Source of the DNA: an uncultured Gammaproteobacteria bacterium
GTDB lineage: Bacteria; Pseudomonadota; Gammaproteobacteria; GCA-001735895
Assembly: GCA_947259305.1 (NCBI GenBank)
Contig: CAMYML010000004.1
Coordinates: 1-40,014, forward strand
Direction: 5' to 3'
DNA: 40,014 bases
The translations under genes were made by a program, and so were the position numbers. The notes under the pieces were generated by a model that did no database searches, had not been told where the DNA came from, and saw only the letters and a list, made by a program, of their open reading frames with translations. Shown here piece by piece: positions 590-20,124 of this stretch. Numbering within the stretch: position 1 is the stretch's first letter; each line of letters begins with the position of its first letter.

Positions 590-3500
590 TTATTGCTGGC
601 TTAGTTTGCGGAAGTAGTCGGCGACCATTTCCTCGTAGTCGTCGGGTAACTCGGCCGGCTCGGATATCAACAGTTCGGGATATTCGGCTTTATCGAACTT
701 GTTGCGTAACTTGTACTCCAGCTCCATCAGAGCGCGCAGGGCGAGTTCGTACTGCGCGCTGGAAGCAGGGATAGCCGCGCCGTTTTGCCCGCGCGTTAAA
801 GCTTCAATCTGCGCGAGCACGGGATCGACATCGCCCGCCGAGGCGCCCTGGTCGAGCAAACCCCCGCCGAGTTCGCGCGTGCGTTCGGCGATGTCGTTCA
901 GTTCGTCCTGACCGATCGGCCGGTCGTCGAAATCCGTTCGACCCGCAGTGTCGGCGTCCACGCCCGGGCCGTTAGTGGTCCCCGCGGCGCGTTGCCGCAG
1001 GTAACGCAACTCTCGCGCCAGGTCGTGCAGTTGCTCGAGCGAGCGCCCCAGCCCCCGGGTGCCTTTTTCGCCAACGTTCTCGAGGGCCGTTTCGATATGC
1101 TCGCGGATCTCGCCGATGCCCTTCTGGATTACGGTTTCGTTGTCGAGCGCATGCTCGCGATCGTCCAGCAGCACCATTTGCCGGGTGCGACCGATGCGAT
1201 CGTGCAGGCGATACTCGCGCCCCGCCCGAATCGCCTGTTTTAACGCCTGACCTGACTCGGGCTGCTCTTCCTTCGCGGTTGTCGTCAGGCTGCTGAGTTC
1301 GCTCTCCAGGTCGGTCAGCGCTTCCGACAGCGCCTGCTTTTTTTGCCTGAGCCGTTCCAGCTGGGCTTCGAGCCGGCCGCCCCATTGGTCGTCCAGCGCC
1401 GACACTTCCTGCTTGATGGCAGCTTGTTTTTTCTCTACCAGTTCGGCGCGGCGCAGGCTGCGCTCGACCTTTTCGCTGAACTGCCGCGCCCGGCCCTGGT
1501 CCAGCAGGCGCCTGGCTTCACGCAGGTTTTCTGCGGCCTGGCGGGCCTGATCGACGCTGCCCGTACCGCCCGCCGTCGCGGACGACGCGGCGCGTCGCAT
1601 GGCTTGCGCCGCATTACGCATCTTGCTGATCGACTGCTGTAACTGCGGATTCGGCTGTGTGCGCGACAGCCGCTCCAGTTGTCGCGCCATCGCTTCCAGT
1701 TCTTCGGCCAGCGCGAGCTGCTTCTGGTTGGCGTTGTTGTTCTGCGCCTGACCCTGACGCCGCATCGCGCGTTCCACTTCCTGCTGCTGGCGCCTTGCCA
1801 GTTCGCGCAGTTTATCCAGGGTCTCGTCGATCAATTCGGCTGGCGGCGGTTGCTGCGCGCCGCGCTGCACGGTTTCATATTGATGCCGCAGTTTGTCCAT
1901 TTCCAGCTGGAACAGGTTGGCCAGGTCTTCGATGCCGGCGTTGCTGCCGGCCCCGCCGCCGCCGCGGTTCGCCAGCGAAACGTTGATATCCCTGAACTCC
2001 GCATCGGCTCTTTGCAGATGCTTCAGCGCAACCTGCGCGTCGGTTAGCGCCGGTTCGATCTCGGCTCGGTCCAGTTGTTGTTCCACCTCGCGCATGGCTT
2101 CGATTGCCAGCGGTAACTCCTCCAGGATGACCTTGTATCTTGCGTCGGCCTGGACAATCGCACGACTGCTGATGCGCCTTACAATCGCTTCCACGCGGTC
2201 GCGAATACGCCCTTGCGCCGTGACCAGCAGCTCCAGGTTTTCCTGGTAGGTCTGGTCACTGTAGCGGTTGCGGTCGCGAATCATTTTGAAGGTAGCCACG
2301 ACGAACTGCTTTTGCTGCTCCGACAGATGCCCCTGCTGTTGCCCGCCCTGGGCGCCGCCGCCACCGCCGCCACCCTGCTGCTCGGCGCGGCGGTAGTTTT
2401 TGCGGAACGGGCGCACCTGGTAAAAGAATATGTCGCTGGTAGCGGTTTTGGCCGCGTCGGCTGGCGCCCGGTCCGCGGCGTTGACGTAGTAGGAAATCAG
2501 GTCACCGGGACGCAGGCCGAGATCTTCGAGGTAGACGATGTGCTCGGCCTCGACCTGTTGACGGGCGCCTGGCTCATCCGCCGCCGGCATCAATTCGATG
2601 CGTTGCTCGGCTTCGCCATTGACCGACAGTACCAGCTCGAGGTTGGCAATGCCCTGATCGTCGGTGGCGCGCACTTTGAGCACCGGTTCTTCGATCATGC
2701 TGACCTTGATATCCCGCCCGGGGCTCGTAATCGATACGCTCGGAAATCGGTCGTCGAGCGCGCTGATGCGAAACTCGGCCGAAGCGTCGACCGGGATACC
2801 GCTCGCGCGCTGCAGCGTCACCTGGTAGGCGCTGTCCTGTTGCACCGTTATTTCACCAATCCAGGTCGAGTCATCCGCGCGCTGCAGGTCGATGCGCTCG
2901 CCATCGGCGAGCTGCAGTGCACCGCCTGGAATATCAATCGTCGGCTCGATCAGCACTTCGACGCGGGTGCCCCGCAGTGCCGTGATGTCGCCGGAACCCT
3001 GGCTGGTTTCGGGTGGCAGCATGGTATAAGCGGGAAAGTTGTAACGCAGGCCGATCGACTCGATCGCGGGGATATCGGCCACCGTGATGCGATGAGTCGG
3101 GGACTGCCGGCCCGCCCCGCTGACGTAGTAATCGGTGTCCTGCTTCAAATCGAAGACAAAGGACTCATAGCGGCCGCCCTCGTTGCTGGCAGCCATTGTC
3201 GTTTGCTGCCAGCTTTCACCTTCGTCGCGCGAGGTGAAAAGCAGCACGTCGGCGCCGTCGAATCCGTCAATCCGGGCGCTGATCAATTGATCGTCGCCGC
3301 GCGCAATTTCGATATCGCCGGGCGCAAGCTCGATGCGATAGGGAGAAACTTCACTCGCGCTGGCCCAGGCTTGCAGCAATGCCGGCGCGCCGCTGCGCAA
3401 AAACCCGGGCGGCCAGAGCATCAATCCGATAATAACGAACAGCGCAACCCCGAGCTTAGAGCCTGCCTGGCGGAGTTTTTGTCGTTCGACCCGGTCACCG

Positions 3501-3976
3501 TATTCAACCCGCGCACAGGCGTCGAGCGCTCGCTCGACCAGCTGTTCGACCAGTTGCGTCGATAAGTCACGCAGGCCCGTTCGCCGGGCGTCGACCGCGC
3601 TCAGGATGAGCGACTTCAAGTCTGGTTCGTGCTCTTCCAGGTAGAGCGCGACCTGGACGTCGTCGACCTTGCGGCGCAAGGGTTTGACACAGAACTGCAA
3701 GACCAGCGCAAGCAGGGCAAAAACGCCGACAAAGCGTAACGACCAGACCGCGGACGGGGCAAAATGCCACGCGTTTACCAGCCAGGCCAATATCAGGATC
3801 AACGCGGTCGCGAGCGCGAGCGTCCAAACCAGGCCGTTGACTAACAGGCGCAGCCGCCAGCGCCGTCGTATGCGCTCGATGATCGCGGACAGGGCGGGTC
3901 TGCCGTCGGCCTGGCGCCGGACCGGTGTCAGCAGGTCGAACAATCTGGCGCCGATATTGTGATGTGTCGTATCCAT
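590..3976 (-). CDS. DUF4175-like large membrane protein (1128 aa) with N-terminal TM helices and long coiled-coil/Gln-rich C-terminal region
   Basis: Long ORF with TM segments near the N-terminus, Gly/Gln-rich linker 'QQGGGGGGGAQGGQQQG' and helical repeats. Located in a MoxR/DUF58/BatA cluster. Confidence 0.75.
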   Translation of the reverse strand: MDTTHHNIGARLFDLLTPVRRQADGRPALSAIIERIRRRWRLRLLVNGLVWTLALATALILILAWLVNAWHFAPSAVWSLRFVGVFALLALVLQFCVKPLRRKVDDVQVALYLEEHEPDLKSLILSAVDARRTGLRDLSTQLVEQLVERALDACARVEYGDRVERQKLRQAGSKLGVALFVIIGLMLWPPGFLRSGAPALLQAWASASEVSPYRIELAPGDIEIARGDDQLISARIDGFDGADVLLFTSRDEGESWQQTTMAASNEGGRYESFVFDLKQDTDYYVSGAGRQSPTHRITVADIPAIESIGLRYNFPAYTMLPPETSQGSGDITALRGTRVEVLIEPTIDIPGGALQLADGERIDLQRADDSTWIGEITVQQDSAYQVTLQRASGIPVDASAEFRISALDDRFPSVSITSPGRDIKVSMIEEPVLKVRATDDQGIANLELVLSVNGEAEQRIELMPAADEPGARQQVEAEHIVYLEDLGLRPGDLISYYVNAADRAPADAAKTATSDIFFYQVRPFRKNYRRAEQQGGGGGGGAQGGQQQGHLSEQQKQFVVATFKMIRDRNRYSDQTYQENLELLVTAQGRIRDRVEAIVRRISSRAIVQADARYKVILEELPLAIEAMREVEQQLDRAEIEPALTDAQVALKHLQRADAEFRDINVSLANRGGGGAGSNAGIEDLANLFQLEMDKLRHQYETVQRGAQQPPPAELIDETLDKLRELARRQQQEVERAMRRQGQAQNNNANQKQLALAEELEAMARQLERLSRTQPNPQLQQSISKMRNAAQAMRRAASSATAGGTGSVDQARQAAENLREARRLLDQGRARQFSEKVERSLRRAELVEKKQAAIKQEVSALDDQWGGRLEAQLERLRQKKQALSEALTDLESELSSLTTTAKEEQPESGQALKQAIRAGREYRLHDRIGRTRQMVLLDDREHALDNETVIQKGIGEIREHIETALENVGEKGTRGLGRSLEQLHDLARELRYLRQRAAGTTNGPGVDADTAGRTDFDDRPIGQDELNDIAERTRELGGGLLDQGASAGDVDPVLAQIEALTRGQNGAAIPASSAQYELALRALMELEYKLRNKFDKAEYPELLISEPAELPDDYEEMVADYFRKLSQQ

Positions 3977-3988
3977 ATTTTTCGTCGG

Positions 3989-6033
3989 CTAGCCTGTTCC
4001 CCGGGTGCGGATGGATCGCCTGGCGCCGATCCAGTTTGCGGACAGGGCCTCGATCAGCGTCAACGCCAGCACCGCCAGCAGAATCGCGTAGGCCAGTTGC
4101 TGTTGCTGCTCATATTCACTGGCCTGTCGCCTGGTCAGGGCCGCACCCGTAACGGGAGGTTTCGCAGAAGCCCTAATTTCCTCCACAAATCGGTCGACGT
4201 CAAGCGTCTCCAGGTTTGTTTCCTGCGGATCGATGTTCGCCGCCAGGGTGATTTCCACCCCGCTCGGGGTCGCCTGATGGACCTGGTAGAACCCCGGCTC
4301 CGTCAACGCTAACAACGGGGATTGCCGATTGACCCGGATTTCCCTGGCCGACGGCGTTTCGATAATCAGCGGCCCGTCATTTGCGGCGGCGACGGTGGCG
4401 TCGGCGCCCGCAAGCGCACGCGCGTAGCGCATTACGTCGGTGATACTACCGATTTCGGATTGATTCGGATAGGCTTCGAAGGCCGTGAGATAGCGCAGGC
4501 TCTGGTGCAGAAAGGGTAGAAAAACCGGCTGTAGCGCGAGGTCGTTCCAATGCGTATCCAGCGTCGTAGTCAGCGCCAGCACGCGACCCTGGCCGACGCG
4601 CCGTTCCAGCAGCGCGACCGCGCCATCGCTGTAGCGGGCTACGACCCGGTCATCCGCCGCGGGTTGCAGTTCGCGATAATTGAAAATTCGCGCCAGCGAC
4701 AGGTCGATCGTATTGCGCGCGCCAAGACTGATGGCGAGCGGATGGTCGGCTTCGAAATCGGTTATGTTAAAGGCCGTGCCCCGTTTCGCATCGACCTTGC
4801 GACCCGGGCTGCCTGGCAGGTAAGGCGACGCCCAGTTTCGCTGCGTTGCCGTGCCGGTAGTGACCAGCAAGCCGCCGCCCGCGGCGGCGAATTTGGCCAG
4901 CGCCTCACCCAGCTCGCCACCGGGCAGCGAGACGTCATTCATGATGATTACCGCCCAGTTCTGCAGATCCTCCGCTTTCAATTCATCGATTGCTATGCGT
5001 TCGACCCGAAACACGGGGTTGCGCGATAGCCGCAGGGCGTTCTGCAGGTAAACGGCCTGGTTGCTGCGGGCTGCGGGCTCCTCGACGATTAACAGCGGCA
5101 GCTGTTGCCTGCTCGAGTAAACGAAGAAGCGCTGGTTATCCAGCGCCAGCGCATCGTCACCCAGGCTGACACGGCCGCGCAGTAAATCGTCGCTGACGCT
5201 CAGTCGATCGAAGCTTTCGGCAATCGCCGAGCGGGGTGCTAACAAGAGCTTGCGCCGGGCGAGCTCACGGCCGTCGAGCGTCAGCGTGACTTCCTGCTGC
5301 AGCGGGATGGTCGCGCGATTGGCCACGTCAACCGTGAGCGAAAACTCGTCGGCGCCGATGCGTGACGACGGTTCGATGACGACCCCGGTGATCGACGCAT
5401 TCGCAACCTCGGCCGACGCAGCCTGGTGGTACTGATTTCGGATCTATACGACACGCCGGAGCTCTTTTTGCGGCTGGCGTTGCTGCCCGCGAGCAGGCGC
5501 GCCGCCTGCTCGATCGCGGGCGGCAAGCGCGTTGCTTTAAACCCGGGTGTCTGGTCCTGGAGTACCGTGCGCAGGTTGGCGGCACGGCTGCTCAGGTCGC
5601 TGAGCAGCTCGGTCTCGTCATCGAATAATACGACAGCAATCCGGTCCTGCGCCGGTTTCTGATCGACCAGCCACAAGGCGATATCGAGCGCCTGTTGCCA
5701 ATGGTCGGCAATGCGCATGCTGTAGGATCGGTCGAGCACGATGACGCTGTCCTGGCGTCCCGGTTCCAGCCCCGTGGACCCGGTTGCAGAGCTGAAGAAC
5801 GGGCGCGCAAACGCGAGCACGATGAGCAGCAGCAGCAGGCAGCGCAATAGCAGCAGCAACCAGTGCCTGATCTCGAGGCGGCGTTTTTCGCGCTGCGGGA
5901 TTCGTTTTAAAAACATCAACGACGGGAAGCGGGCACCCTGGCTGTGCTGCTTTTGCACCAGGTGGATCAACACCGGCAGGGCCAGTAACAGCAGGCCGAC
6001 CAGATACAGCGGATTGATCCAGGACAGGCCCAT
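3989..6033 (-). pseudogene. BatA-like VWA-domain membrane protein, reading frame disrupted (N-terminal piece 5281..6033, C-terminal piece 3989..about 5403)
   Basis: N-terminal piece 'MGLSWINPLYLVGLLLLALPVLIHLVQKQ...RFPSLMFLKRIP' is a BatA-type N-terminus with MIDAS 'DRSYSM'. The C-terminal piece continues in another frame ('SITGVVIEPSSRIGADEFSLTVDVANRATIPLQQEVTLTLDGREL...'). The junction contains a 59-bp inverted copy of DUF58 gene sequence. Confidence 0.7.
5404..5462 (+). repeat. 59-bp perfect inverted repeat, arm 1 (within the disrupted BatA-like gene)
   Basis: caacctcggccgacgcagcctggtggtactgatttcggatctatacgacacgccggagc is the exact reverse complement of 6353..6411. Confidence 0.95.
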
Positions 6034-6956
6034 CAGCGGGTCCGGTTCTGGCGTTCCCGGTCGGACAGGTAACGGAACAGGATATTATCCAGCGGTTGGG
6101 AAATGTCAGCGAAGATATAGTCGATCTGGTTGGCGCCAAAGCGCCGCTCGAGCTCAGCCCGGTGATCCTGGATCAGCTGTCGGTAGCGGTCCTGAAACTG
6201 CTCGGCTGCGAGCGGCAGGTTAACCCCTGATTCCAGGTCTTCCACGCTGGAGACGTCGCCCAGGTCCAGGCTCAGTTCCTGCGGATCCAGCAAATGGAAC
6301 ACGATCAGGTCGTTGCCGCGGTAGCGCAGTTGATTGATCGCACCGAGCAGGCGCTCCGGCGTGTCGTATAGATCCGAAATCAGTACCACCAGGCTGCGTC
6401 GGCCGAGGTTGAGGGCGATTTTCGCCAGCGGTTCGCGGTAATTGCTGGCGCCGCCGGCGGTGAGTCGATCGAGGGCAAGCAGCACCGTGTTGAAATGCCT
6501 GATCGACGGTGGGATCACTTCGACGATCTCGTTGTCGAAGGTGATCAGGCCGATACGATCGCGCTGGCGCCGGGACAGGTAGGCCAGGCTCGCGGCGAGA
6601 AATTTTGCGTATTCGAGTTTGGTCACCGCGCCGCTGCCGAAGTCCATGGAGCGGGAGACGTCGAGCAGCAGGTGCAGGTTGGCATTGGTATCGGCCTCGA
6701 ATTCCTTGACATAGAGGCGGTCGGTGCGCGCGAACAGCCGCCAGTCGATGCGGCGCACGTCATCGCCGGGCATGTAGGCGCGATGTTCGGCGAAATCCAC
6801 CGACATGCCGAGCATCGGCGAACGATGCAGACCGCTGATGAAGCCGTCCACCACGCCGCGCGCGACCAGTTCCAGGTTGTCGATACGGGTCAGTACTTCC
6901 GGATCGATGAAGCGCTGTCCGGGTAGCTGGGCCTGTGCCTGTCTGTTTCTCGGCAT
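6033..6956 (-). CDS. DUF58 domain-containing protein (VWA-like)
   Basis: 'HRSPMLGMSVDFAEHRAYMPGDDVRRIDWRLFARTDRLYVKEFEADTNANLHLLLDVSRSMDFG', the DUF58 signature with a MIDAS-like DVSRSM. Confidence 0.92.
   Translation of the reverse strand: MPRNRQAQAQLPGQRFIDPEVLTRIDNLELVARGVVDGFISGLHRSPMLGMSVDFAEHRAYMPGDDVRRIDWRLFARTDRLYVKEFEADTNANLHLLLDVSRSMDFGSGAVTKLEYAKFLAASLAYLSRRQRDRIGLITFDNEIVEVIPPSIRHFNTVLLALDRLTAGGASNYREPLAKIALNLGRRSLVVLISDLYDTPERLLGAINQLRYRGNDLIVFHLLDPQELSLDLGDVSSVEDLESGVNLPLAAEQFQDRYRQLIQDHRAELERRFGANQIDYIFADISQPLDNILFRYLSDRERQNRTR
6353..6411 (-). repeat. 59-bp perfect inverted repeat, arm 2 (in-frame part of the DUF58 gene, encoding ..NLGRRSLVVLISDLYDTPE..)
   Basis: Reverse complement of 5404..5462. 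Here it lies in the intact DUF58 reading frame, so this is the likely source copy. Confidence 0.95.
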
Positions 6957-6967
6957 GCTGCTGCCCG

Positions 6968-8005
6968 CTACATGCCCGAGCTCGGTAACGGCACCGCGTC
7001 GAGCAGGCGATCGATGAGCTCGTCGGAAGTGATTTTTTCCGATTCGGCGTGAAAGTTTCGCAACACCCGATGCCTGAGCACGGGTTTGGCGAGCTGTACG
7101 ATATCGTCGAAATCGACATGGTAGCGACCATCGAGCAGGGCCCGCGCCTTGCCGCCGAGCACCAGGTACTGCGCGGCGCGGGTGCTGGCGCCGTAGTCCA
7201 CCCAGTCGCGCACGAAATCGAGCGCGTCAGCGCTGCCCGGGCGACTGCAGCGCACCAGGTCCAGCGCGTATTGCGAAACCGGTTTCGAGACCGGTACCCT
7301 GCGCACCAGTTTCTGAAAAGCGCGAATCTCCCCGCCGCTCATCGCGTATTCGAACGCAATTTCGCGCAGCGAGGTCGTCTGGCGCACCACTTCGAGTTCA
7401 TCCTCCGCCGACAGGTAGTCGATAATAATTTCGAACATGAAGCGATCCAGCTGCGCTTCGGGCAACGGATAGGTGCCCTCCAGTTCGATCGGGTTTTGCG
7501 TGGCGAACACGAAAAATGGCTCTTCCAGCTCGTAGGTCTTGCCCTGCACGGTGACGCGGTGCTCCTGCATCGCTTCGAGCAGCGCGGATTGCGTCTTCGG
7601 TGGCGTCCGGTTGATCTCGTCGGCGAGCACGATGTTGGCGAAAATGGGGCCGGGCAGGAAGTTGAGTTCGCGTTTACCGGTGTCGGGATTTTCCTGCACC
7701 AGGTCGGTGCCGGTGATATCCGACGGCATCAGGTCCGGCGTGAACTGGATGCGTGAAAACCTGAGATCCAGCACCTGGGCGATGGAGTGAATCAACAGCG
7801 TCTTGGCGAGGCCGGGTACGCCGACGATCAGGCTATTACCGCCGGCCAGGATGGTCAGCATGACCTGCTCCACCACGGCGTCCTGGCCGACGATCAGTTT
7901 GCCCAGTTCGCCGCGCAGGCGCGCGTAACGCTCGATCAAATCCTCGGCGAGCCCGATATCGTCGGCGGCCTGCAGGGATTCTGTCTGTTCAGTTTGCTTA
8001 TCCAT
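6968..8005 (-). CDS. MoxR family AAA+ ATPase
   Basis: 'GNSLIVGVPGLAKTLLIHSIAQVLDLRFSRIQFTPDLMPSDITGT' Walker A region and 'VLADEINRTPPKTQSALLEAMQEHRVTVQG' Walker B region. Confidence 0.95.
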   Translation of the reverse strand: MDKQTEQTESLQAADDIGLAEDLIERYARLRGELGKLIVGQDAVVEQVMLTILAGGNSLIVGVPGLAKTLLIHSIAQVLDLRFSRIQFTPDLMPSDITGTDLVQENPDTGKRELNFLPGPIFANIVLADEINRTPPKTQSALLEAMQEHRVTVQGKTYELEEPFFVFATQNPIELEGTYPLPEAQLDRFMFEIIIDYLSAEDELEVVRQTTSLREIAFEYAMSGGEIRAFQKLVRRVPVSKPVSQYALDLVRCSRPGSADALDFVRDWVDYGASTRAAQYLVLGGKARALLDGRYHVDFDDIVQLAKPVLRHRVLRNFHAESEKITSDELIDRLLDAVPLPSSGM

Positions 8006-8077
8006 CGGTGGACCTCTTGTGCCATTCAGGACGCGCCCGGCGCGGTCGCCGGCTGCTACGGTCGATCTGTCGCACGG

Positions 8078-10624
8078 CTACTGCGCCTCCGTCGCGGCGG
8101 GCGTCTTTGCCCGCAACGAGAGCAGCAATTCCTGCGCGCGGTAAAAATTGGGCGCGATCTCGAGAGCATATAATATCTGCTCGCGGGCGGAAGATCGATC
8201 ACCCGCGCGTTCGTAGGCAAAGGCCAGCTGGTAGTGCGCTTCCGCCTTGTCCACCGGGTCGAGCGCGAGCAGGGCGCGGCGCTCGCGCGCAACCCGCTCC
8301 CAGTTATCCAGAATAGTATGCTGGCCGGCCAGATCCTGGTGCAGGTCGAGATCGTAGGGGTAGATATAAATCGCGCCTTCCAGCGCCTCTGCGGCGGCGG
8401 CGTGAGCGCCACGTTTCACGCGTAGTTTCGCCAGCTCGAGTTGCGCCGGATAGTGTTCGGCGTTGATCGCAATCAATTGTTCGAGCTGCGTTTCCGCCTG
8501 CGGATATTGCTCCTGTTGCAGGTAGAGCTGAGCCAATAGCCAGTAGCTGCTATCTTCGCCCGCGTATTCCGGGAACAGTTGTTGTGCCCTTTGCAGAAAC
8601 AGTTCGGCCAGCTCCAGGTTTTCCTGTTCATACAGCAATTGCCCGAGTTTGAGTTGATCGAAATACTTGTCGGGCAGCGCGGTTTCGGCTGTCACCTGGC
8701 CCGCAGGGTCCACTGATTCGGTTTGTTGACCAGGTTCCATGTCCTTGCTCAGTGCCTTGAGCGCGGTGGCGTAGCGGGTTTTCAGATAATCGTCGAACGC
8801 GGCGTCGAGCGCGGCGCCGTCGAGCTGCAGCTGCTGCAGTAACACGGCATCGGGGTTTTTGCTGTCCCGATAGGCGTTCAGGCTTGCCCGGATCACGTCG
8901 AAGCCCCAGCGTTGTTCGATGAACTCGAATACCAGCGAAGCCTGGAAGTAGGAATGGATCACCTGTTCCGGGTAGGAGGGTCGAACGAATCCATTGTTCA
9001 ACTGGCTGACCGGCAATAATCGGCCGTCGAGATAGGCGAGTAGAAAATCCGGGGTGATATCGCCGCCCCAGCCCGGGCGGGCAATACGTTCCTCGTAGAC
9101 CGCAAGCCCCTCGGAGAACCAGCGCGGCACGCGGTTTGCGGTCATCGACAAGTGGAACACGTGGGCCAGCTCATGCCATAACGTGGAGCCCCAGTTGAAC
9201 TCGCTGCGCGCGCGCGCCGCGGGCGAGTCCATCGCCACCACCGGCCCGAAGCAGACACCCAGCAGCCCGACGCCGGCCAGTCCGACCGAGCGAACCGAGA
9301 AATCGGCGTGATCCGGGTATAGCTCGACGCGAATCGGCTCGTCGGGTTGGTGCCGGTAACGCGCCTCGAGATGCTGGTAAGCCTGCGCCGCGAGATCGTG
9401 AATATACTCGCCGAGTAACGCATTCTCCTGGCCGTGCAGGACGACGCGGAATCTACCCCGGTCGATCTGCACGTAGTCTTTGAAGCTGTCCGCGAGCTGT
9501 AGCGTATTCTTGATCCAGACGTTATAAGGATCGCCGGCGAAGGAGCGCTCCAGGTTTTCCCGCCCGGCCTCGATCTGCCCCAGGCGCATTTGATTCATGC
9601 CCAGCAGGCCAAAGCCGCGCCATGATAGCGCATCCAGCTGCAGCGCACGCCGGGCAAAGTTTTCGGCATCCTGGTAAAGCCTGTTTTGCGCCGCCAGGTC
9701 CGCCAGCGTGGTATAGAATTCGGCATACCGCGGATTCAGCGCCATGACCTGTGCTTCGATTGCTGCGAAGCGATCCGTGTTGCGCTCAAGATGGTTGACC
9801 ACGGCGAGCATGGTCAGGGCTTCCAGCGACACCGGGTTGACCTCGAGCGCGAGCTCCGCCTCGTGCCGGGCGTCGCTAAATTGCTCCAGCTCGATAAACA
9901 GGCGCGCCATGAAGACGCGCGTGGGCACCAGGTTGGGGTTGATGGACAATGCCTGCAGCGCCGTCGTCACCGCCTCTGACGAATAATCGAAGTGCTGGCT
10001 GCGCGCCAGGCCGAGCAGGGCGCGCGGATGTTTTTCGTCGATTGCGAGCATCTCTTTGAACAGCGCCGATGCCTCCTGGTTATTGTATTTTTCCAGCAGC
10101 AACTCACCCAGCGCAATGCCCGCATCGAGGTAGGAGGGATCTTTGCGGCTTGCCTGATCGAATAGCTGTACCGCGTCCTTGAACAGCTGCGGATCGGAGC
10201 GACCCAGGTGACGCGTGGCGCTGGCAATCGCAAACAGGTCGCGCGCGCTTAACGAGGATTCGGATTGGTAGGCCTGCCGAATATCGCGCCACAGGGTTTC
10301 GGCCGGTTGCCATGCGCCCCGTTGCCGATGAGTTTCGGCGAGATTGAGTTTTGCCATTAGGCGCGCGGGACCGGGCAGCTCGAGCGCCTGCCGGAAGCGC
10401 ATGGCCGCGGCGTCCAGGTCCCCTGTTTCGAGTCGAAGTTCGCCTAGCTGGTTCAGCAGCAGGCTGTTGTTCGGCTCCGCGTCCAGTTCGCTTTGTACGT
10501 GTTCGATCGCGGCCGGGTAATCGCCGGCAAGGCGCAGAGCCTGAATCTGTTCCAGCCGCGGGTCGGTGGCGGCGTAACCGAGTTGCGTCAAGCCAAGCAG
10601 CAGCAGTGCGTAGAGTTTTTTCAC
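8078..10624 (-). CDS. TPR-repeat protein with central gluzincin (peptidase MA-like) domain, 848 aa
   Basis: Signal-like N-terminus 'MKKLYALLLLGLTQLGYA', TPR-like helices on both sides, and 'STLWHELAHVFHLSMTANRVPRWFSEGLAVYEE' (HExxH at 9161-9175 with downstream E). Confidence 0.85.
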   Translation of the reverse strand: MKKLYALLLLGLTQLGYAATDPRLEQIQALRLAGDYPAAIEHVQSELDAEPNNSLLLNQLGELRLETGDLDAAAMRFRQALELPGPARLMAKLNLAETHRQRGAWQPAETLWRDIRQAYQSESSLSARDLFAIASATRHLGRSDPQLFKDAVQLFDQASRKDPSYLDAGIALGELLLEKYNNQEASALFKEMLAIDEKHPRALLGLARSQHFDYSSEAVTTALQALSINPNLVPTRVFMARLFIELEQFSDARHEAELALEVNPVSLEALTMLAVVNHLERNTDRFAAIEAQVMALNPRYAEFYTTLADLAAQNRLYQDAENFARRALQLDALSWRGFGLLGMNQMRLGQIEAGRENLERSFAGDPYNVWIKNTLQLADSFKDYVQIDRGRFRVVLHGQENALLGEYIHDLAAQAYQHLEARYRHQPDEPIRVELYPDHADFSVRSVGLAGVGLLGVCFGPVVAMDSPAARARSEFNWGSTLWHELAHVFHLSMTANRVPRWFSEGLAVYEERIARPGWGGDITPDFLLAYLDGRLLPVSQLNNGFVRPSYPEQVIHSYFQASLVFEFIEQRWGFDVIRASLNAYRDSKNPDAVLLQQLQLDGAALDAAFDDYLKTRYATALKALSKDMEPGQQTESVDPAGQVTAETALPDKYFDQLKLGQLLYEQENLELAELFLQRAQQLFPEYAGEDSSYWLLAQLYLQQEQYPQAETQLEQLIAINAEHYPAQLELAKLRVKRGAHAAAAEALEGAIYIYPYDLDLHQDLAGQHTILDNWERVARERRALLALDPVDKAEAHYQLAFAYERAGDRSSAREQILYALEIAPNFYRAQELLLSLRAKTPAATEAQ

Positions 10625-11599
10625 CTAACCTCCCTGTGCCCTGATTTCCCGGCTCAGCAGGGCGAGATCGACCAGTAATCCTTCGAGCCGGGTGTAGTAG
10701 TCGACCCGTGGCAGGCTTTCACGCTGCCGCTTTAGCTCGCTGATCGACTGCTCGAGATCCTGTTTGCGTCGCATCCTCTCGACTAATTGCGCGGATGCGC
10801 CAAGCTCCAGGGACGGCGGCTGCTGCAGGTAAACGCGGTTTGCCAGGGCGCCGTCAGGCTCGAACTCGCCTGGCGCCAGGCTGCCTTCGCCATCGCCGTT
10901 ATCGTCCAGCAGGGCGTGCTCGGTCAGCAGCTGTTTTTCATTGTCGAAGGCGCGCCGGGTCTCGCGGCGCGCGAAGGCGAAGGCTTCCAGCATCGATACC
11001 CGCTCGTCCTTGTCCGTGTCCGCGCCGGATTCGGCAAAGGCGGCAACGAAATAATCGCCGAAGAGGGTTGCGTGGTACTCGCGGCCGCTCGATGTCGCGG
11101 TAATGACGACCCGGTTATGCGCGGAGAGCGCCTTGATGAACGGGCCGCTGGCGGAGGCCGTGTTGACGATGACGACCAGCTGGTTTGCCAGCCCGTCCAG
11201 CGCCGCGGCGAGTTCCGTGGCGGAGATGTCGGGGCCTGGCAGGTTGAAGGCCGCGTCGTCGCCGCGGGGATTACCGTGGCCAATCAGGACCACGAAAACG
11301 CGGTCGTCGACCTGCGCCCTGGCGCCGATCTCCCGCAGCGCCTGCAGGATCGTCGGCTTGTCCGAGATCCGGTGTTGCGTGGGGCTATCCGGCATCGGGG
11401 TCTCGGTTAGCAAGATGATATTGTTTTTATCGACGCCGACCTCGATGGCAGATTCATACAGGCGCGTCGATCTGTCTGCAAAAAGCTCGCGATAGTCGTC
11501 GATCCCGCCGATCCCGCCGATAATCAGCAGGTAGTTTTGGGTCGCCTGCGCGCACGGCGTCGCGCACAGCAAGAGCAGCAGGATAGTGCGTAATTTCAT
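10625..11599 (-). CDS. Caspase/C13-like fold protein, secreted, probable non-canonical nucleophile
   Basis: Start taken at the internal Met giving signal peptide 'MKLRTILLLLLCATPCAQA'. Contains 'FVVLIGHGNPRGDDAAF' and 'QLVVIVNTASASGPF'. ATGA overlap (11596-11599) with the upstream gene supports this start. Confidence 0.6.
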   Translation of the reverse strand: MKLRTILLLLLCATPCAQATQNYLLIIGGIGGIDDYRELFADRSTRLYESAIEVGVDKNNIILLTETPMPDSPTQHRISDKPTILQALREIGARAQVDDRVFVVLIGHGNPRGDDAAFNLPGPDISATELAAALDGLANQLVVIVNTASASGPFIKALSAHNRVVITATSSGREYHATLFGDYFVAAFAESGADTDKDERVSMLEAFAFARRETRRAFDNEKQLLTEHALLDDNGDGEGSLAPGEFEPDGALANRVYLQQPPSLELGASAQLVERMRRKQDLEQSISELKRQRESLPRVDYYTRLEGLLVDLALLSREIRAQGG

Positions 11600-13860
11600 G
11601 CCAGGCTCCGCCAGCGCCGGTATCCCCACTCCGCGCACAACAGGGCGACGAGCAACAGAAACAGGATCGGCATATCCCATAGCTCGAGGCGCAGCAGCCT
11701 GCGCGACCCACGCGAATTGCTATCCAGGGCAGCGACCAGCTGGTCCACCTCTTGCGCTCTGAAAAAGCTGCCGCTGGATTCGTCCGCGATCCGGCGCAAT
11801 AGTTTTTCGTTCATCTCCGAAGCAAAGTATTCATCACCTGCACGGGTTACCAGGAAACGGGTTTCGCCGCTGCGGGTCACTTGCCCGCTTGCATCGAGTT
11901 CGACCTGAGCCAGGTAATCCCCGGGTTCTGCAACCGCTAAATTCCCTTCGTAGACGCCTGGCAGGGAAGGGTGGGGTTGCAGGGGTATCGCCTGTTCGCT
12001 GCCGTCCAGCGCGGTCAGCACCGCACGCACCTGCGCCTCGCGCTGCGCGCTAAAATCAGCTTTCAATACTTCGCTGCGTAGTTTGATCACACCCCCGACA
12101 TGGATTTTCTGGGCCGACAGTTCCAGGTTCAAACGCCGCGGCACGCTTTCGACCAGCCAGCGCAGCAGTTGCCGCCACAACAGTTCATGGGTCTGATCTT
12201 CGAGGTCGATCTCGTGATGCATTTGCCACAACCAGGAATTCTGTACCGGGAACGCGACGACCTTGCCGCGGCCGTAGCGATGCCAGGCCATGGCCACGTA
12301 GGGGTCGTCCCGGTCGTTTGCCGGGCTGCTTAACAGCAGCGTCGCGCCGGGTTTTATTCGCCGGATCGGATTGACCATGGTCAACGGCGGCAGGGTCAGC
12401 CAGCGGGCGATCGATTTTTCGCTGCTGTCATCGAGTATCAGGGCCGGGTGGACCCAGGCTGCGGCGGTTGGCTGAATCTTGATCCGACGGTTGAATTCGG
12501 GTTGGGCCCGATCCGGCATGATCACCGGCGATATGCCGTGCAGCACGGAATCGCGATACCCCCCCTCGGTGAAAGCGTGACGGCCGCCCAGCATCAGCAG
12601 GCCGCCCCCGCGCTCGCTGACAAACTCGACGATCATGTCCTGTTGCTCGCGACTCAGTAATGAATTTTCGACACTGCCCAGTATGATGGCGTCGTAGGCA
12701 AATAGTTCGTCGCGGGTGATCGGAAAGCCGTTACGCAGCTCTTCCGAGGATTCGATACCGACCCGGTAATATTTCGCGTCGGCGGTTCTGATCAAACCCG
12801 TGACAGCCAGGTTCTCGTCATCGGCCACCGCGCGCCGGATGAACTTCAACTCGAAACGCGGCTCGCCTTCGTAATACAGGATTCGTATTTTACGGTTATC
12901 CACCGTCAGCATGGCCTGGCGGCTGTTGTTGGCGACGATTTGCTCGTCAGCCATGGCGCCGAGGTGAAACTCGAGTTGGCGCGGACCGGTATCTTCGATA
13001 GCGAGCGGTATCCGGATCGACTGCATCCCCGGTTTGAGGCGGAGTTGCTGCTTGTGCAGGATTCGGCTGTTGTCCTCGATCAGCAATTCAACCGGCAAGC
13101 CGTCGTAACCCTGCTGCTTTATCGTAACATCCGCCATCACCCGGCTGCCGTTCAGTACTTCGTCGGGCAGCCTGATCTGGCTGATTTCGATATCGCGCGC
13201 GTAGCGGCTCTCGCCCAGGCCGATGCTGTATACTGGAATCCGCGCCGACCTCAGGGATAACAGCAGCTTATCCAGCGGCTCGGCCGGCTGCAGGGCGCCG
13301 TCGCTGATCACCACCAGGCCGGCCAGCGGTTCACCCTGCAGGGTCGCCTGTGCGAAGCTTAGCGCCTGGATTAAATCGCTGTCGCCGTCGCTAAAATCGA
13401 GTGCGTCGATGTCGGCGATCGCTTCTGTTGCGGCGCCGAATTTAAACAGGCGCAGGTCGAAGCTCTGCTGTAGCGCGCGCAGCAGGTTGCCGGATTCGGC
13501 ATCGAGTTGCTGCCTGATAAAATCGCCGCGCGTGCCCAGCACCGGGTCCGCCAATCCCATGCTGATCGAATTATCGAGCAAAACGCCGACCACGCCGGGT
13601 TGCGGCATCTGCGCCGTGACTTCGAGCAGCGGCCGCGACAGACTGAAGATAATCACTGCAAGGGCCAGGCCGCGTAGCAACGCGATTATCATCCGATCCC
13701 CGCCGCGCGTGCGCCCCTGCAGTTTGAAGTAACCCAGCACTATGAAGGCGAGCGGAGCGATTACCAGTGGCAGTAGCGCCAGCTGCCACCAGGACAGGAG
13801 CGATACGAACCTGCCCTCGGCAAAATACTCGGCGGGGAATTTGAACAGGAATTCGAACAT
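11596..13860 (-). CDS. VWA-domain plus GATase1-like membrane protein (754 aa)
   Basis: N-terminal TM helices, MIDAS-like 'GVLLDNSISMG', GATase-like 'AYDAIILGSVENSLLSREQQDMIVEFVSERGGGLLMLGGRHAF', C-terminal TM helix. Confidence 0.8.
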   Translation of the reverse strand: MFEFLFKFPAEYFAEGRFVSLLSWWQLALLPLVIAPLAFIVLGYFKLQGRTRGGDRMIIALLRGLALAVIIFSLSRPLLEVTAQMPQPGVVGVLLDNSISMGLADPVLGTRGDFIRQQLDAESGNLLRALQQSFDLRLFKFGAATEAIADIDALDFSDGDSDLIQALSFAQATLQGEPLAGLVVISDGALQPAEPLDKLLLSLRSARIPVYSIGLGESRYARDIEISQIRLPDEVLNGSRVMADVTIKQQGYDGLPVELLIEDNSRILHKQQLRLKPGMQSIRIPLAIEDTGPRQLEFHLGAMADEQIVANNSRQAMLTVDNRKIRILYYEGEPRFELKFIRRAVADDENLAVTGLIRTADAKYYRVGIESSEELRNGFPITRDELFAYDAIILGSVENSLLSREQQDMIVEFVSERGGGLLMLGGRHAFTEGGYRDSVLHGISPVIMPDRAQPEFNRRIKIQPTAAAWVHPALILDDSSEKSIARWLTLPPLTMVNPIRRIKPGATLLLSSPANDRDDPYVAMAWHRYGRGKVVAFPVQNSWLWQMHHEIDLEDQTHELLWRQLLRWLVESVPRRLNLELSAQKIHVGGVIKLRSEVLKADFSAQREAQVRAVLTALDGSEQAIPLQPHPSLPGVYEGNLAVAEPGDYLAQVELDASGQVTRSGETRFLVTRAGDEYFASEMNEKLLRRIADESSGSFFRAQEVDQLVAALDSNSRGSRRLLRLELWDMPILFLLLVALLCAEWGYRRWRSLA

Positions 13861-13885
13861 GCTTCAGTTTAGCCCCGGGATGGCG

Positions 13886-14686
13886 CTAGTGGGTCATGCC
13901 GTAGATGACGAAATTGATTCCGATTTCGAAGGCATAGGTCGAAAATTTGAGTGGATAGTTTGGATCGTCCGCCCATTCCCAGGCGTCCCCGAGGTCGGTA
14001 TTCCAGTTGATCAACACCATCAGGCGGCCGTCGTCGTCGAAGATACCGCGCACGTGGGGCACGATGCCGTCGTATTCATGGGTCGGCCCGCCGTGCTGCG
14101 CGGCCCAGCCCTGGCGCAGGTTAGGCACCTGTATGACGCGATCGATGTTATAAAAGACATGAAATACGGGGTGTTCCGGCGGCACCTCGACTATCGCGCG
14201 ATCGGGGAAGACCATTTGCATCTGCGACAGAAACTGATCCCAGGCCCAGCTGCCCCAGAAATCGTCGAAGACCAGGAAACCGCCGGCCAGCAGGTAATTC
14301 CGCAGCGCCAGCACCTCCGCCTCGGTCAGCGACATCGAACCGACTTCGACCGCGTATAACAGCGGAAAGTGACGCAGCAAGGGATCGGTCAACTCGATTG
14401 CATTGTCGGACCCGTAGGCGTCGATAACGCTAAGCCGTTTCAGCGCCACCAGGAACTGGTGATCCGCTTTAGGATAATCGACTGCCCAGCGCCCGCCTTC
14501 GTCGTAGTCGTCGAACTCCCCGCTATAAATGCCGCGGGTAAAATAAAACTCATGCGCGTTGCCGGGAGGGGTGTCAGGGGCGCTGGAGATTTGCGCCTGA
14601 TCGTCATGCTGGAGCGACTGGGCGGTCGCGAGCGCAGGTAACAGGCCTGCAATCAGTAAAAGAAAAAACGGTTTTACCTGGTTCAT
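13886..14686 (-). CDS. DUF4159 domain-containing protein
   Basis: 'EFYFTRGIYSGEFDDYDEGGRWAVDYPKADHQFLVALKRLS' and 'YLLAGGFLVFDDFWGSWAWDQFLSQM', typical of DUF4159 proteins near DUF58/MoxR genes. Confidence 0.85.
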   Translation of the reverse strand: MNQVKPFFLLLIAGLLPALATAQSLQHDDQAQISSAPDTPPGNAHEFYFTRGIYSGEFDDYDEGGRWAVDYPKADHQFLVALKRLSVIDAYGSDNAIELTDPLLRHFPLLYAVEVGSMSLTEAEVLALRNYLLAGGFLVFDDFWGSWAWDQFLSQMQMVFPDRAIVEVPPEHPVFHVFYNIDRVIQVPNLRQGWAAQHGGPTHEYDGIVPHVRGIFDDDGRLMVLINWNTDLGDAWEWADDPNYPLKFSTYAFEIGINFVIYGMTH

Positions 14687-18012: not shown

Positions 18013-20124
18013 TTACTGTTTGAGTGATAACGGAATCGACACTTCGAATAAAGCGCCACCGACTTCGTTTTTCGCGTATTTAATCTGGCCTTTGAAGGCT
18101 CTCAAAATATCGGCCACGACTGACAATCCCAGACCCCGGCCGGCGCCCTCTTTAGCGCTTACCAGTGGCGAGAACAGCAGGCTGCGGGTTTTGGTGTTGA
18201 TGCCTCTACCGCGATCCGAAATGGAAAACTGGGCATAAATCTTGCCGTCGATATTGGTAAAATTCCGGCTGGATACCATGATCGCAGCATCGTCGGCCTG
18301 CGCTTCAACCGCGTTTTTCACCAGGTTGAGCACGATCTGACGGAAAGCGTCACGGGTTACGTCGATCTCGGCGTCGGTTGGATCGAGGTCCCACATGATT
18401 TGAATTTCCCGTTCCGGGCTTATGGCCTTGACGTATAGCGGGATGCTGCCCTGCAGTTCGGTGTTCAGCATCACGGCCTCGGGCTCGACCTCGCCGCCGT
18501 CCTTGAAATTTATAACAATATTGCGAACGCGCTGCAGTTCTTCCTTCAGTATCCCGATTTCCTTGTCACTGCCGGTGCCTCCCGACCTTGCGTTGACGAT
18601 ATCGATGTAATTACCGATCACGCTCAGCGGGTTGCTGATCTCGTGAATCAACTTGTCGATTTCCCTTTGTTCCTGCTCGTTTTTCACGCCCTGCCGTCCC
18701 TGGATGGGCATGTGCTTTATCCAGGTTTCGGCGATGTCTTCCAGGTAGCTGGATATGATGTCGGCCAGCTTCTCCAGGTTGTTGCGCTGCGTTTTATGGC
18801 AACCGACCACAATCGTGCCGATGGCCTCGGTGTCGTAAACCAGCGGAAAGCAGAGTGCAATATGGTGGTTCAGCCGGTGAATGATCTGGCGGTCGGGGAC
18901 GGGCGATTTCCGATGGTCCGGGCCTTCGGCTTCGATCCACAGCTGGCGTTTTTCGAGATAGCTTCGCACCGCCTGGCTTTGGTTGTTTTCGAGCGAAAAT
19001 CTGCACAACGGATCGACCGGTTTAACCTCGTGCAAACTCAAGGATTCCGGGGCCTGGGGGTCATGGTAGAGCAGCGCCAGATGCGAGATCGAAAAATATA
19101 ACTGCATATCCCGCGCCACTTTCGCGAGCAGCTTGCCCGGGGTATTCAAAATCGTCGGATAGGTTTCTTCAGCGCTTATGACCTTGATCAGTGAAGCATC
19201 CCTGATTTTGCGCGCGAGCTTGACGGTTTCCTTTTCGATATCCTTGGATAATTGATCCTGGGTCAGGCTCTTTGACCGCGGCAGGCTGATGCCGAGTTTT
19301 TTGGCGGTCTGGGTGACCTTGTCGTGAACGTGAATATAGATATCCTTTAAATCTTTATGCTCGATCAGGGCCGAACGCCATTTGGGGTCGGCGCTGCCGG
19401 CCTCGCACCAGTGGCGGGCAATCTGGCTGGCCTCGGCGACGATCCGGCACAGAATGTCGCTGCCCTGCAGTTGGACCTCGTCTTCGTGGTGAAAACGGAC
19501 CGCGTCTGCGATCGCGGGGCTCAGGCTGGGCCAGCGTTCGATAATACCGGCGCCCAGTTCGGTATGGCTGATGCCGAACTTGGAAATTTCCTGGGCGATG
19601 GTTTCGGCCTCGGTCGTCGAATTAATGATTTTGATGTACTGATCGTGATACTTGGCGTCAAACACGATCTGGCCGATATCATGCAGCAAGCCCGCCAGGT
19701 AGGCATCCTGGGGATACTCGTAGCCGAGCGCGATGGCGATGTCCCTGGCGAACACGGCGCAATAAATAGAGTCCAGCCAGGCGTTGCAGATGTATTTTTT
19801 CTGGGATTCGATCAGCCCGGCAAAGAGTTGCTGTATCGACGAGGTCGCCACCATGGTTTTTACCTGCGCATGGCCGATCAGCGTTACCGCCTGCTCCAGG
19901 TTTTTCAGGGGCTGGTTGATCGCGAATGCGCTGGAATTTGCGGCCATGATCAACTTGCTGGTAAGGGCGGCGTCTATGCTGATCAAGTCGGCCAGCTCGC
20001 CCAGCGAACTATCCGGGTCGTGGCAAATATCCAGCAATTTACAAAGGACATGTGGGGGGCTAGGCAGCCTCACCAATTCCATTGATTCTAATAGCGATTG
20101 TGGCGGACTTCCTAGTTCATACAT
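18013..20124 (-). CDS. HDOD-domain sensor histidine kinase (HDOD - GAF-like - HisKA/HATPase)
   Basis: HDOD 'LPSPPHVLCKLLDICHDPDSSLGELADLISIDAALTSKLIMAANSSAF'; H-box 'LIHEISNPLSVIGNYIDIV'; N-box 'IVLNLVKNAVEAQ'; G-boxes 'ISDRGRGI' and 'GRGLGLSVV'. Confidence 0.95.
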   Translation of the reverse strand: MYELGSPPQSLLESMELVRLPSPPHVLCKLLDICHDPDSSLGELADLISIDAALTSKLIMAANSSAFAINQPLKNLEQAVTLIGHAQVKTMVATSSIQQLFAGLIESQKKYICNAWLDSIYCAVFARDIAIALGYEYPQDAYLAGLLHDIGQIVFDAKYHDQYIKIINSTTEAETIAQEISKFGISHTELGAGIIERWPSLSPAIADAVRFHHEDEVQLQGSDILCRIVAEASQIARHWCEAGSADPKWRSALIEHKDLKDIYIHVHDKVTQTAKKLGISLPRSKSLTQDQLSKDIEKETVKLARKIRDASLIKVISAEETYPTILNTPGKLLAKVARDMQLYFSISHLALLYHDPQAPESLSLHEVKPVDPLCRFSLENNQSQAVRSYLEKRQLWIEAEGPDHRKSPVPDRQIIHRLNHHIALCFPLVYDTEAIGTIVVGCHKTQRNNLEKLADIISSYLEDIAETWIKHMPIQGRQGVKNEQEQREIDKLIHEISNPLSVIGNYIDIVNARSGGTGSDKEIGILKEELQRVRNIVINFKDGGEVEPEAVMLNTELQGSIPLYVKAISPEREIQIMWDLDPTDAEIDVTRDAFRQIVLNLVKNAVEAQADDAAIMVSSRNFTNIDGKIYAQFSISDRGRGINTKTRSLLFSPLVSAKEGAGRGLGLSVVADILRAFKGQIKYAKNEVGGALFEVSIPLSLKQ

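Follow-up and report, generated by a model that had tools for sequence, protein, structure and literature searches.

In this assembly, the MoxR-DUF58-BatA operon contains an inverted copy of DUF58 DNA, a probable artefact

The window, i.e. the whole stretch of 40,014 nucleotides that was analyzed, carries an operon that matches the usual MoxR-DUF58-BatA (VWA) operon of the Bat proteins in gene order and domains, and differs from it by the interruption of the BatA-like gene alone. Its features are listed below, with the sequences at the two junctions given in the sense of the BatA-like gene.

6968-8005, minus strand: intact MoxR-type AAA ATPase gene, part of this operon (Pfam AAA_3, 1.6e-61)
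6033-6956, minus strand: intact DUF58 gene, source of the block (Pfam DUF58, 2.6e-45)
6353-6411, minus strand: native source copy of the block, in frame in the DUF58 gene (NLGRRSLVVLISDLYDTPE); relatives reach up to 90% DNA identity to it at the corresponding site
5281-6033, minus strand: 5' part of the BatA-like gene, with the BatA N-terminal domain (Pfam BatA, 2e-21) and a truncated VWA domain (Pfam VWA_2, 1.3e-10)
5462/5463: junction 1, ...CGCAAAAAGA followed by GCTCCGG...; microhomology with the source flank is absent
5404-5462, plus strand: inverted block of 59 bp in the BatA-like gene, in place of a 102-bp segment of the closest relatives
5403/5404: junction 2, ...GAGGTTG followed by CGAATGCG...; possible homology of a few nt at most
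3989-5403, minus strand: 3' part of the BatA-like gene, in a different frame, open from the block to the stop codon (in the ORF list as 3989-5326, from a GTG)

The region from 590 to 14686 (minus strand) is a syntenic block in which the order MoxR, DUF58, BatA, DUF4175-like is conserved across the relatives compared, and which also encodes TPR/peptidase-MA-like, C13-peptidase-like and GATase1-like proteins and DUF4159. The other syntenic genes of this region are unbroken in comparison with the relative G030.

As a preliminary description of this DNA had claimed, the 59 nt at 5404-5462 and those at 6353-6411 are exact reverse complements (100% complementary); these two arms are separated by 890 nt. 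When N runs and self-overlapping palindromes were excluded, this pair was the longest exact inverted repeat in 1.41 Mb of the same genome, where no other exceeded 27 nt. The best exact inverted repeats in control loci from other genomes (0.86 Mb) were 34 and 36 nt, both shorter than 59 nt. Because neither the 1.41 Mb nor the controls held a repeat of equal length, the probability that this one arose by chance is negligible. A whole-genome search for the 59-nt block returned the two arms only, with no third copy. A perfect 60-bp inverted repeat was observed in the relative G005 (contig C84, locus L163), at 5061-5120 and 10095-10154, 5 kb apart; it has GGGGTCAGGCCTTAC ends and looks like a member of a dispersed repeat family unrelated to the BatA block.

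In the relatives, the counterpart of the block was found in the DUF58 gene only, on the strand expected for DUF58 and some 0.9 kb away from the N-terminal segment of BatA (13477-13534 in G030 and 19148-19198 in G005). The in-frame position that had been described for the copy at 6353-6411 was also borne out, within an intact DUF58 gene of 307 aa. The DUF58 copy is native, and the copy inside the BatA-like gene is foreign.

The block replaces part of the VWA domain

The segment lost from the BatA-like gene was defined by alignment with loci L021 and L022 (83% and 78% protein identity, respectively, over the first 190 residues). The window gene aligns with both up to ...SRKK and resumes at ..NASIT, and the intervening segment is exactly 102 bp in both, starting at IYVVSDFQ in L021, and 108 bp in some other relatives. 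Thus, a loss after SRKK, at the expected VWA strand, had been placed correctly, whereas the estimate of about 40 missing codons has to be reduced to 34 (102 bp) relative to the two closest relatives and 36 relative to some others. Replacement of 102 bp by 59 bp is a net change of -43 bp, which destroys the reading frame: the gene is native up to 5463 and frame-shifted beyond. Our results agree with the original description of a wrong-strand block with loss of frame. The gene has 250 aa in frame 1 upstream and 445 aa (from a GTG) in another frame downstream, compared with BatA-like ORFs of 704-717 aa in relatives. In VWA domains, the aspartate of the SDF motif belongs to the metal-binding site, so the truncated product should lack function.

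An uninterrupted match to this BatA stretch was present in 11 relatives of the genus. We also looked for an intact allele in a named genome or in one of the same species and found none; the closest name-bearing relatives are MAGs. Relative to G030, pN/pS was 0.21 for the N-terminal part and 0.38 for the C-terminal part, and intact relatives compared with one another gave 0.20-0.58. No stop codon has arisen in the 3' part downstream of the lesion. Since both halves of the gene keep normal constraint, the lesion is either very recent or not real, and with no sign of decay we rejected an ancient pseudogene.

The block does not behave as a functional or mobile element

The preliminary description had raised a rearrangement of the phase or conversion type between VWA paralogues, and had proposed a search of relatives for the inverted copy as a check for an ancestral feature. 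The operon transcript would be expected to contain a perfect stem of 59 bp spanning the border of DUF58 and BatA, which might suit an RNA hairpin, as an alternative to programmed inversion, conversion or a phase switch between VWA paralogues. Yet none of the 30 further genomes that were searched in this genus has the inverted copy, the 59 bp make no meaningful coding sequence within the BatA-like gene, there is no third copy, and inversion of the DNA between the two arms would not restore the missing 102 bp. An ancestral or functional feature of any of these kinds can hardly be credited, and the lesion is very unlikely to be a mobile, phase-variable or functional element. A rearrangement between paralogues is also unsupported in that the block lies on the wrong strand, codes for nothing there and has no similarity at its junctions. 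Gene conversion transfers a same-strand tract between similar sequences, whereas this block lies on the opposite strand and has no marked similarity to the deleted stretch in either orientation. A mobile or repeated element was likewise rejected, as only two copies exist genome-wide; the L163 repeat is not comparable, its ends being unlike those of the block.

The assembly contains other N-free breaks in conserved genes

The source assembly is a 368-contig draft that is 92.8% complete. It contains N runs of 3, 8, 11, 14 and 41, and a 99-bp overlap between contig ends; at the N gap in locus L212, GACACCGG is present in both flanks. In assemblies made with IDBA-UD or CLC, Ns have been described between flanks that overlap, and the same authors suspect that unsupported "local assembly errors" are most prominent in IDBA-UD (Chen et al. 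2020, PMC7111523); this assembly resembles those cases in having Ns between overlapping flanks. We considered 59 as the k-mer size of the assembler and dropped it, because a different setting is indicated by the N runs and by the overlap of 99 bp between contig ends.

The contigs are numbered by decreasing length, but many exceed the length that their rank would predict; C18, for example, has 58,971 bases and no N yet ranks among 24-kb contigs. This departure from length order implies that length-ordered seeds were later extended by joins, many of them without Ns. In agreement with this, the N run at 755-795 of C51 lies inside the join slot predicted from the ordering (662-949). The contig of the window, C4, is not provably extended; the ordering permits but does not require a join at 5.4 kb (remainder ~34.6 kb).

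A survey for further scars compared 586 ORFs from relatives with the 1.41 Mb, about a third of the genome; 214 had a good match and seven of these were flagged. Two corresponded to the BatA lesion, one was a shadow frame where the DUF4175-like gene starts, and the remaining four were N-free breaks, as follows.

C34:8813 (L135): polA (DNA polymerase I), ~45 bp missing, no Ns; predicted join slot 8333-8821
C33:19797 (L134): FecR-like gene, small N-free indel; predicted join slot 19590-20078
C40:12048 (L141): choline-sulfatase-like gene, 8 bp missing, no Ns
C18:28009 (L121:8009): PilM-like gene, 4 bp added, no Ns

All four are on provably extended contigs, and those on C33 and C34 fall within the predicted join slots, while those on C18 and C40 cannot be placed relative to predicted joins. 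On contigs that are not provably extended, the window has the only break among the genes compared. The broken DNA polymerase I is a warning sign on the assembly. The FecR-like, choline-sulfatase-like and PilM-like breaks are probable assembly scars or frameshifts, and some of the four could be real mutations.

Template switching or an assembly join

A genuine and very recent template switch in vivo would account for the exact reverse-complement copy of nearby DNA in place of native sequence: a nascent strand would leave the BatA-like gene, copy 59 nt of the complementary strand in the DUF58 gene ~0.9 kb away and rejoin its first template after skipping 102 bp, with loss of BatA in this strain. 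Monttinen and Loytynoja (2022, PMC8794818) describe mutations of this kind, with four switch points, in which native sequence is exchanged in a single step for an exact reverse-complement copy, and here both junctions are clean and the copy exact. Bat genes can also be dispensable, as an L. biflexa mutant without all bat ORFs grew normally (PMC3557215). Nevertheless, junction 1 has no microhomology and junction 2 a few nt at most, and the distance of 890 nt between the arms is unlike that of typical short-range events. The described events thus differ from this one in priming similarity at junction 1 and in distance to the source, and the BatA lesion is absent in relatives, which maintain the gene. 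Two switches would be required, and the other N-free breaks in the assembly, polA included, also argue against a real mutation. Templated end joining via Ku is unlikely, because a search of the genome gave no match to Ku. Altogether, a real template switch is the main rival to an artefact but seems unlikely to us. It is correspondingly doubtful that the dominant strain in the sampled population lost its BatA-like gene through an event that had next to no homology for priming.

Chimeras formed during amplification were also considered. According to the summary in PMC5960468 of Lasken and Stockwell (2007), inverted joins make up 85% of MDA chimeras, and the cases described there resemble ours in joining nearby sequence in reverse orientation. 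However, the BatA case has two junctions around 59 bp, and pervasive chimeras should have left many inverted joins, whereas no second such case was present in 1.41 Mb. Pervasive amplification chimeras are therefore unlikely, and the lack of a general excess of inverted chimeras is also in keeping with a real template switch.

Among the causes originally offered, a chimeric amplification or assembly artefact is the best supported: the gene is intact in close relatives and broken only in this assembly, and the same assembly has other N-free breaks in conserved genes, some at predicted joins. For the latter reason, we favor an assembly or library artefact and consider it probable that the lesion is a chimeric inverted tail left where contigs were joined over a gap of poor coverage. 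A stretch of ~100 bp may have been poorly bridged by reads, and two contigs joined there without Ns, one of them ending in a 59-bp chimeric tail complementary in reverse to DNA ~0.9 kb away. Such a tail could come from strand switching or fold-back in library preparation, or from local assembly. The join would then have dropped 34 native codons (102 bp) and retained the tail. That the lesion is itself a join, and how the tail originated, are the parts that we infer. The four other scars are plain, small indels, and since none carries an inverted copy, the chimeric tail has to be assumed for BatA.

The local assembly and scaffold-join errors of Chen et al. (2020) are alike in their short suspect consensus, broken coding gene and lack of Ns, but the stretch inserted here exactly copies, in inverted orientation, DNA that lies 0.9 kb away. 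The real BatA-like gene of the organism is probably intact, like that of its relatives. A point against an artefact is that De Bruijn assemblers are not known to invent junction k-mers, so that one or both of the BatA junctions ought to be present in a read.

Taken at face value, the BatA locus would suggest loss of BatA, or a mechanism of rearrangement, in this lineage. If the template switch were confirmed by reads, it would provide one clear bacterial example of inverted template switching over a long range. Because the check on contig order also points to breaks in polA and other genes, claims of gene loss from this assembly need read support.
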